Origin: Pseudoxanthomonas spadix | Lineage (GTDB): Bacteria; Pseudomonadota; Gammaproteobacteria; Xanthomonadales; Xanthomonadaceae | Assembly: GCF_003703395.1 (NCBI RefSeq) | Contig: NZ_RDQN01000003.1 | Location: 62,001 to 126,000 of the forward strand | DNA length: 64,000 nt | Reading direction: 5' to 3' | Shown here: positions 15,614-43,815 of the stretch, piece after piece | How positions within the stretch are numbered: the stretch's first letter is position 1 | Layout of the letters: each line of letters starts with the position of its first letter | Notes under the pieces: model-generated | Databases searched by the model: none | Told to the model about the DNA's origin: nothing | The model's input: only the letters and a program-made list of their open reading frames with translations | Translations under genes and position numbers: made by a program

Positions 15614-15705
15614 GGTCAAGATTCCCGCTGGAAGTGATGGCAAGGGTTCATGAAGCCAGGTTGGGGGTCAATTGAAAAGCACGATTGGCGCCTCGTACTT
15701 TGGTC

Positions 15706-15859
15706 TAGGAGTCTGTCGGGCTTTCGATGGGCGGACCGAAGATTGGTCAAAAAATCGCCAAAACCGTCCGCGTACGTGCATAAAGCGAGTTTGCAGGACG
15801 CGAAGTCTCTGGAATTCACGTACGTGGCCCATTTTTTGGAAAGCCCGACAGGCTCCTAG
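15706..15859. mobile_element. MITE-like element 1 (154 bp)
   Basis: Terminal inverted repeats TAGGAGTCTGTCGGGCTTTC and GAAAGCCCGACAGGCTCCTA bound an unrelated AT-richer core with no open reading frame of note. The ends match those of the elements at 41455-41622 and 43650-43815. It lies between cstA and corA, upstream of cstA. Confidence 0.8.
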
Positions 15860-40689: not shown

Positions 40690-41457
40690 ATGCGCATCGA
40701 CGTCATCAGCCTGTTCCCTGAATTCATCGACCAGAGCACCGGCTTTGGCGTGGTCGGGCGCGCACGCGAACGCGCCCTGCTGCAGCTGCAGGGTTGGAAT
40801 CCGCGCGACTACGCCAGCGGCAACTATCGCCGCGTGGATGATCGTCCGTTCGGCGGCGGGCCGGGCATGGTGATGCTGATCGAGCCGCTGCGCGCCTGCC
40901 TGGAGGCCGCGCGCCAGGCCGATCCGACCCCTGCGCCGGTCCTCTACCTGAGCCCGCAGGGCCGCCCGCTGACCCAGGCGCGGGTGCGCGAACTGGCCCT
41001 GCTGCCGCGGATGATCCTGCTGTGCGGGCGCTATGAAGGCGTGGACGAGCGCTTGCTGGCGCACCAGGTCGACGAGGAGATCTCGATCGGCGACTACGTG
41101 CTGTCCGGCGGCGAACTGGCTGCCGCGGTGCTGATCGATGCGGTCACCCGGCTGCAGGAGGGCGTGCTCAACGACGCCGAATCGGCCGCCCAGGACAGCT
41201 TCGAGGGCGAGGGCGGGCTGCTGGACTGCCCGCATTTCACCCACCCGGCCAGCCACGCCTGGGGCGAGGTGCCCGAGGTGCTGCGTTCGGGCAACCACGC
41301 CGCCATCGCCCGCTGGCGGCGGCAGCAGTCGCTGGGCCGGACCTGGCTGCGGCGCCCGGAGCTGCTGGACGAGTCGGCCCTGTCACCGGCCGATCGCAAG
41401 CTGCTGGAGGCGTTCCGGCAGGAATGGGCGGCAGATGGATCGCCCGCGAAACCCTAG
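40690..41457 (+). CDS. trmD: TrmD, tRNA (guanine-37-N1)-methyltransferase
   Basis: A 255-residue SPOUT-class methyltransferase that makes m1G37 in tRNA. The deep trefoil knot signatures are [24 protein letters not shown] and [28 protein letters not shown] is the N-terminal glycine motif. The last residues are GSPAKP, and the stop codon TAG (41455-41457) is the first three bases of the MITE-like element at 41455-41622. The stop may therefore have been provided by the inserted DNA. Core motifs are all intact and the protein has normal length. Confidence 0.97.
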
Positions 41458-41622
41458 GAGCCTGTCGGACTTTGGCCGGCCGGGCTGCAAATCCGGCTTG
41501 TGCGGTCCATATTTCCGTCGCTCCTTGCCCCATAGAACCACGATGGGGCGGCGAATCGCCGAAAATCTGTCCTCGCACAGCCGAATTTTCGCCTCGACCG
41601 CCAAAGCCCGACAGACTCCTAG
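41455..41622. mobile_element. MITE-like element 2 (168 bp)
   Basis: Ends TAGGAGCCTGTCGGACTTTGG and the complement of TAGGAGTCTGTCGGGCTTTGG. The interior is about 85 percent identical, in reverse orientation, to the element at 43650-43815. It separates trmD from rplS. Confidence 0.88.
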
Positions 41623-41641
41623 CCACGGCGGCCAATTTGTC

Positions 41642-41647
41642 TATAAT
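41642..41647 (+). promoter_or_regulatory. -10 box of rplS promoter
   Basis: A perfect TATAAT is 20 bp after the MITE end and 132 bp before the rplS ATG. No clear -35 is seen at the proper distance. It suggests rplS has its own promoter, so the insertion need not silence it. Confidence 0.5.
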
Positions 41648-41778
41648 GCGCAGTTCTCACGGCCAGCTCGGCTTGCGGGGAACCCCATAACAACAATCGT
41701 GCGGCGCAATCCTGCGAACGCATCAGTGCCTGCTGTCGAAACCCGACACGCCCACCTCAACAGATAACCGGTGCCACC

Positions 41779-42195
41779 ATGAGCAAGTTGAACAAGTCCA
41801 TCGTCGCGGAGTTCGAAGCCGCCCAGATCACCCGCGAGCTGCCGCAGTTCAGCCAGGGTGACACCATCGTGGTCAACGTGAAGGTGAAGGAAGGCAACCG
41901 CGAGCGCGTGCAGGCCTACGAAGGCGTGGTCATCGGCAAGAAGAACGCCGGCCTGAACTCGGCCTTCACCGTGCGCAAGATCTCGCACGGCTACGGCGTC
42001 GAGCGCGTGTTCCAGACCCACAGCGCGACCATCGACTCGGTCGAGGTCAAGCGCCGCGGCAAGGTCCGCGCCGGCAAGCTGTACTACCTGCGTGGCCTGC
42101 AGGGCAAGGCCGCACGCATCAAGGAAGACCTGGCTGCCGCGGCTCAGGCCAAGGTGGCCCGCCAGGCCGCTGCTTCGGCCAGCGCAGGCAAGTAA
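41779..42195 (+). CDS. rplS: Ribosomal protein L19
   Basis: A 138-residue large-subunit ribosomal protein L19, which sits at the 30S-50S interface. The conserved block [19 protein letters not shown] is followed by [20 protein letters not shown] and [14 protein letters not shown]. The C-terminus has an Ala/Lys-rich extension. It is the last gene of the conserved rpsP-rimM-trmD-rplS set, but is 321 bp from trmD because of the MITE-like element and promoter. Confidence 0.98.
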
Positions 42196-43649: not shown

Positions 43650-43815
43650 TAGCAGCCTGTCGGGCTTTGGTGGTCGAGGCGAGAATTCGGCTGTGCGAGG
43701 TCAGATTTTCGACGGTTCGCCGGCCCATAGTGGTGCTATGGGCCAAGAAGCGGCGGAAAGATGGACCGCACAGGCGGATTCGCAGCCCGGCCGACCAAAG
43801 TCCGACAGGCTGCTA
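43650..43815. mobile_element. MITE-like element 3 (166 bp)
   Basis: Terminal inverted repeats TAGCAGCCTGTCGGGCTTTG and its near-complement. The interior is about 85 percent identical to the reverse complement of element 2 (41455-41622). It lies 78 bp from the pnuC stop codon. Confidence 0.88.

Follow-up and report, generated by a model that had tools for sequence, protein, structure and literature searches.

The gap between trmD and rplS contains a short transposable element, a non-autonomous MITE, which directly follows the stop codon of trmD. It was examined in a 64,000 nt stretch of DNA from Pseudoxanthomonas spadix (the window), along with its copies elsewhere in the genome and the corresponding loci of relatives. 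The preferred reading, to which we assign a probability of about 0.87, is that this is a non-autonomous member of the IS1182 family with ISAzo2-like ends, moved in trans into the CTAG that ends trmD, with duplication of the target and no change to TrmD. The ends and flanks of the element, the empty sites in relatives and the unchanged end of trmD are direct observations.

The element and its surroundings

The trmD gene (40690..41457, + strand) encodes a protein of 255 aa with a match to PF01746, and ends in a CTAG (41454..41457) whose TAG is the stop codon. This is the proximal copy of a duplicated target. The element occupies 41458..41618 (+ strand, 161 bp), and is followed by the distal CTAG copy (41619..41622) and then by native DNA, CCACGGCGG, as at the empty site of relative G007. 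It begins with GAGCCTGTCGGACTTTGGC and finishes with GCCAAAGCCCGACAGACTC; read inwards, the two ends (GAGCCTGTCGGACTTTGGC and GAGTCTGTCGGGCTTTGGC) form terminal inverted repeats, and the element is palindromic along its whole length.

Bacterial MITEs (e.g., MITEAba12) are short, lack a transposase gene, have inverted ends, duplicate their target and occur in many copies. These general traits are all shared by the element, which is short and carries no transposase gene, but it differs from MITEs in general by its full-length palindrome, its CTAG target and the location of half of its copies on stop codons. The predicted RNA fold of the element plus flanks, at -84.1 kcal/mol, is far more stable than those of 200 shuffled sequences, which average -55.1 (z -6.9), and the two CTAG copies pair at the base of the element's fold. 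With 31 full copies in the genome and a fold of this kind, the element is far beyond chance. No intrinsic terminator, in the sense of a GC hairpin with a T tract behind it, was found in 41400-41800.

The distance between the two genes is 321 bp, or 156 bp after taking out the element and one CTAG, the native intergenic DNA being 41623-41778. A TATAAT sequence (41642..41647, + strand; promoter-like site 41620-41647), the native -10-like box of rplS, is located 19 bases beyond the distal CTAG, and a conserved pair of leader hairpins (41699..41748, + strand) precedes rplS itself (41779..42195, + strand, 138 aa). A previous sequence-only reading of this DNA had described a MITE-like insertion tolerated between two essential genes. 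A terminal-inverted-repeat element is indeed there, and the tolerance is supported, trmD and rplS usually being essential. The span given for the element, 41455-41778, was too wide: an element is present, but the TAG at 41455-41457 belongs to the duplicated target and the DNA from 41623 to 41778 is native.

Empty sites in the genus

The trmD-rplS region was compared at 29 loci, from 29 of 36 congeneric relatives, and the element was present at none of them. At these loci trmD ends in TAG in 23 cases and in CTAG in seven, and encodes 245-263 aa, with 255 aa in the four nearest element-free relatives (G004, G007, G009 and G017). The empty sites bring out the target duplication, with CTAG on both sides of the element here and a single CTAG at the trmD end in seven relatives. 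That of G007 reads ..GCGCTAGCCACGGCGG, and is matched by the distal flank of the element, which still reads CTAGCCACGGCGG. The gap between trmD and rplS in the 29 congeners is 122-319 bp (median 149; 155 in G007 and 160 in G009). A TANNNT box is found 124-173 nt upstream of rplS in all 29 relatives, none of which has the element, so the TATAAT at 41642-41647 is ancestral.

These comparisons overturn several proposals made from the window alone, namely that the element supplies the trmD stop codon, splits a tight and universal operon, and is followed by a TATAAT box that restores expression of rplS. The 321 bp gap and the position of the box just past the element had been read correctly, but the genes are not normally a few bases apart, the native gap in relatives being about 150 bp, and the box occurs in relatives that lack the element. 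Comparison of the trmD C-terminus with such relatives, a check put forward at the same time, shows that the TAG end and the 255 aa length are also found without the element. Judged by the empty sites, the trmD TAG predates the insertion, the element having landed on an existing stop and copied it; the element gave neither stop nor promoter, and broke no tight operon.

Genomic copies and their target

The 31 full copies (159-161 bp, with one of 186 bp), which are accompanied by several fragments, fall into two subfamilies, GAG...CTC and CAG...CTG. CTAG is found on both sides of 28 of them, with no wider target motif and no further base conserved around the copies. The outer C and G of the target are nearly invariant, so the duplication may be of CTAG, or of the central TA alone with the outer bases as a target preference, and the data fit both. 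Under TA duplication, the G of the proximal trmD TAG would be the first base of the element. In all 15 copies located on stop codons, the gene-distal flank reads CTAG in the direction of the gene and so retains its own TAG, from which it follows, whichever duplication model holds, that the insertion found a TAG codon already in place.

A second full copy in the window, of the CAG...CTG subfamily (43653..43812, - strand), has CTAG on both sides and lies between convergent genes. A related inverted-repeat element of 147 bp (15709..15855, or 15705-15859 as the wider span) has similar ends, a different core and CTAG on both sides. Copies also lie near contig ends in contigs C26, C23 and C14 of G000, and some assembly breaks may therefore stem from the repeat. 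Element-like DNA was detected in 4 of 38 genomes of the genus; across the family, 4 of 395 genomes contain the exact end pattern.

Use of stop codons

Genes were called with our own simple codon-score script, the elements having been removed beforehand, and the background consisted of hand-picked stretches (20 around copies and 20 elsewhere) plus the window. By these gene calls, 15 of the 31 copies coincide exactly with a gene's TAG stop codon and the other 16 lie between genes, leaving none within a coding sequence. Free CTAG sites numbered 145 in 862 kb, with 13 at stops, 19 within genes and 113 elsewhere. Stop codons are used in excess of these free sites (15/31 versus 13/145, Fisher p 1.5e-6) and genes are avoided (0/31 versus 19/145, p 0.027). 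Stops are also over-used relative to free CTAG sites in convergent (p 0.04; two copies and 11 free sites only), tandem (p 0.0002) and divergent (p 0.003) gaps. Six of the 31 copies lie in divergent gaps, so that loss of insertions into promoters is, alone, no easy explanation for the excess. CTAG itself is scarce, occurring 116 times in 462 kb (some of these being copy flanks) where base composition predicts 1369 and a second-order model 375, or about 12-fold and 3-fold below expectation. We think that the stop excess comes mainly from the rarity of CTAG in genes, the loss of gene-breaking insertions and the protein-neutral outcome of insertion at TAG; perhaps a further preference for gene ends adds to it.

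A Pfam search with ten of the 15 stop-site proteins assigned each of the ten to a family: tRNA_m1G_MT (trmD), CD225, Rieske, tRNA-synt_1c, PNPOx, Iso_dh, DUF924, BMFP, SPOR and PALP. We take these to include GluQ, PdxH and cysteine synthase, and presume that RecD, EpmB and a hybrid kinase are among the other stop-site proteins. At two sites (L019 1507-1666 and L246 17373-17532), the CTAG target at the end of the gene is also the start of a TAGAAT box (CTAGAAT), and the duplication preserves this box along with the stop codon; the sequence after CTAGAAT in L019 looks to us like the start of a tRNA.

Thirteen of the 15 stop-copy genes could be compared with a relative, G007 or G009 (none was found for those of L237 and L241). 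Their proteins end at the same residue as the relative or no more than two residues away, except for the RecD homologue, which has a variable end. For five of the 13 (those of L014, L019, L025 and L246, and trmD), one or both relatives have a gene that ends in CTAG, and the remaining eight have TGA or TAA in both G007 and G009. The control consisted of 13 genes ending in a free CTAG, nine with a relative and four for which none was found; here CTAG was retained for 1/9 genes and TAG for 2/9. The difference in CTAG retention (5/13 versus 1/9) is not significant (p 0.33), and so gives no support to the idea that the element supplies stops. Stop identity turns over regardless, with no sign that the copies changed it.

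Relationship to the IS1182 family

The end pattern was found in many phyla, with at least 118 stretches when each species was represented by a single genome. Among the matches listed, short elements with paired ends number 63 in 55 stretches, and 30 have a length of exactly 161 bp. Classification was possible for 57 of the 63 (six near locus ends were dropped), and the count took in the 31 flanked by CTAG at both ends. Again among the matches listed, the stop excess is weak (7/31 versus 10/108, p 0.06), several of the elements coming from Extensimonas genomes and not being independent, and 5/31 lie inside predicted genes.

A longer element with the same ends (1407 bp, flanks CTAG/CTAA) is carried by an alphaproteobacterial MAG (L116, 2245-3651). 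Its transposase frame is broken, and the first 292 residues match NF033551 (IS1182) with an E value of 4.3e-55 and 187.5 bits, against a cut-off of 270; the fragment also matches DUF772. Three of the four plasmid IS1182 elements examined (L232, L233, L234) have ends of this kind, with 1-2 mismatches to the pattern. Those of Polaromonas pPNAP01 and Aromatoleum (ISAzo2) have CTAG flanks and that of the Acetobacter plasmid has flanks TTAG/CTAA; paired ends of this kind were not found in the fourth, from a Simplicispira plasmid (L235). The ISAzo2-like elements of Aromatoleum plasmid 2 and Polaromonas pPNAP01 resemble the MITE in their ends, CAGCCTGTCGGGCTT (one ISAzo2 end being CAGCCTGTCGGACTA), and in the CTAG on both flanks, but carry about 1.5 kb of transposase sequence, of which the 161 bp MITE has none.

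An intact IS1182 transposase was not found in this assembly. The L116 fragment had no match in the genome, NF033551 matched a 33-residue remnant only (contig C12), without such ends nearby, and the listing of end patterns for the genome contains no two facing ends 1-2 kb apart. IS1182 matches scoring above the cut-off are present in 5 of 38 congeners (G007, G012, G019, G022 and G030). These were considered as mobilisers and rejected, as their ends differ (at least one locus was examined in each), which leaves the genus with no observed mobilising element of this end type. Judging by these assemblies, the copies are orphans; no transposase to mobilise them was found in their own genome, though a relic MITE does not require one.

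IS5 has the target YTAR and also inserts at CTAG-like sites, and this shared type of target suggested it as a parent. It was rejected, as the two PF01609 loci of the genome lack these ends and PF13586 gave no match. The open literature searched yielded nothing on IS1182 MITEs in connection with CTAG, a target site or palindromes, on MITEs in Lysobacter, or on Xanthomonadaceae MITEs at CTAG stop codons.

The rplS leader

The two hairpins of the rplS leader (41699-41723 and 41734-41748) lie downstream of the -10 box and are common to 36 distinct leaders from 40 loci (L031-L060 without L044, L342-L344, L349, L351 and L353-L358), which belong to the genus and to part of the wider family. These leaders were selected by a permissive pattern in which some of the outer stem is fixed, and a length filter removed L044. 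In the first hairpin, four of nine pairs change on both sides (G-C/A-U or U-A/C-G) across the 36 distinct leaders, and the single non-standard pair is that of the present genome. The second hairpin has four pairs, all of them invariant, which is uninformative either way. At the gathering score, Rfam gave no match for the leader here or in six relatives, and nothing on an rplS/L19 leader was found in the open literature searched. This may be a candidate leader for L19 self-control. Elsewhere in the family, at L345-L348, L350, L352 and most of L367-L382, the rplS leaders are different but alike within groups (e.g., GACGCGGGTCCACGTGCACTCGCGC), giving the impression of a remodelled leader.

Discussion

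In the reading we favour, an IS1182-type transposase would have worked in trans in the past and recognised ends of the form [G/C]AGNCTGTCGGNCTTTG. Insertion into the CTAG at the end of trmD (..CC TAG) duplicated the target and rebuilt the stop codon and, because this CTAG is the end of the gene, left TrmD unchanged. The native -10 box and leader of rplS were kept, with rplS moved 165 bp further from trmD, and 14 other stop codons have undergone the same. Both the movement by an IS1182 transposase in trans and its timing are what we infer.

The opposite account, in which the element brought in the TAG, ended trmD, split a tight operon and left a new TATAAT box to restore rplS, has in its favour that the TAG directly adjoins the element, that the last G would be the element's own first base under TA duplication, and that, for eight of the 13 stop-copy genes, both relatives stop with TGA or TAA. 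It is nevertheless extremely improbable, as the TAG end, the gap size and the -10 box are all present in element-free relatives, the far flank keeps TAG in every stop-codon copy, and stop identity also turns over in element-free control genes. Equally hard to credit is a REP or REPIN moved by a RAYT tyrosine transposase. The element is like REPINs and GTAG-tagged REPs (PMC3116915, PMC3733652) in being a palindrome with a TAG-containing tag at one end, and is likewise found outside genes in many copies with TAG at its ends, but here the target is duplicated and the same ends are borne by IS1182 elements, which are of the DDE type. REPIN/RAYT systems are not known to duplicate their target. In addition, the element is about 160 bp long, whereas a published abstract puts REPs at 20-40 bp. 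It is also unlikely, if less so, that the element has been kept for a function, as a long hairpin that starts at the stop codon and protects the 3' end of trmD or blocks read-through into rplS. Its very stable fold, paired at the base by the CTAG copies, and its position directly after the stop would suit such a role, but no terminator-like site was found, all 29 relatives examined lack it here, and the other copies lie in all kinds of gaps.

Whether the stop excess includes true target choice is a separate matter. A transposase might be steered to gene ends (e.g., by transcription, supercoiling or terminating ribosomes), where insertion is nearly free of scars. The over-use of stops relative to CTAG sites in all three types of gap speaks for this, and the data from other phyla go in the same direction, but there is no motif beyond CTAG, the small number of convergent copies and sites makes the neutral comparison weak, and the cross-phylum difference is marginal among the matches listed. 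We regard steering to gene ends as a tentative possibility, with the odds somewhat against it. The same holds for an IS1182-type system that occupies a nearly scar-free niche and favours CTAG stops beyond what site availability and selection would give, CTAG being uncommon within the genes of this GC-rich genome but present where genes finish with TAG. In such a niche, housekeeping genes (trmD, and the icd, cysteine synthase, pdxH, recD and gluQ homologues) would be safe landing sites, since the duplicated target rebuilds the stop exactly.

A stop codon that adjoins an element need not have been supplied by it, and what had looked like an insertion that rewrote the end of an essential gene becomes a simple rule for insertion without harm. 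If the duplicated target of a transposon contains a stop codon, the transposon can occupy the end of a gene and leave the protein unchanged, which makes the use of stop codons a countable and testable property of IS1182-type elements.
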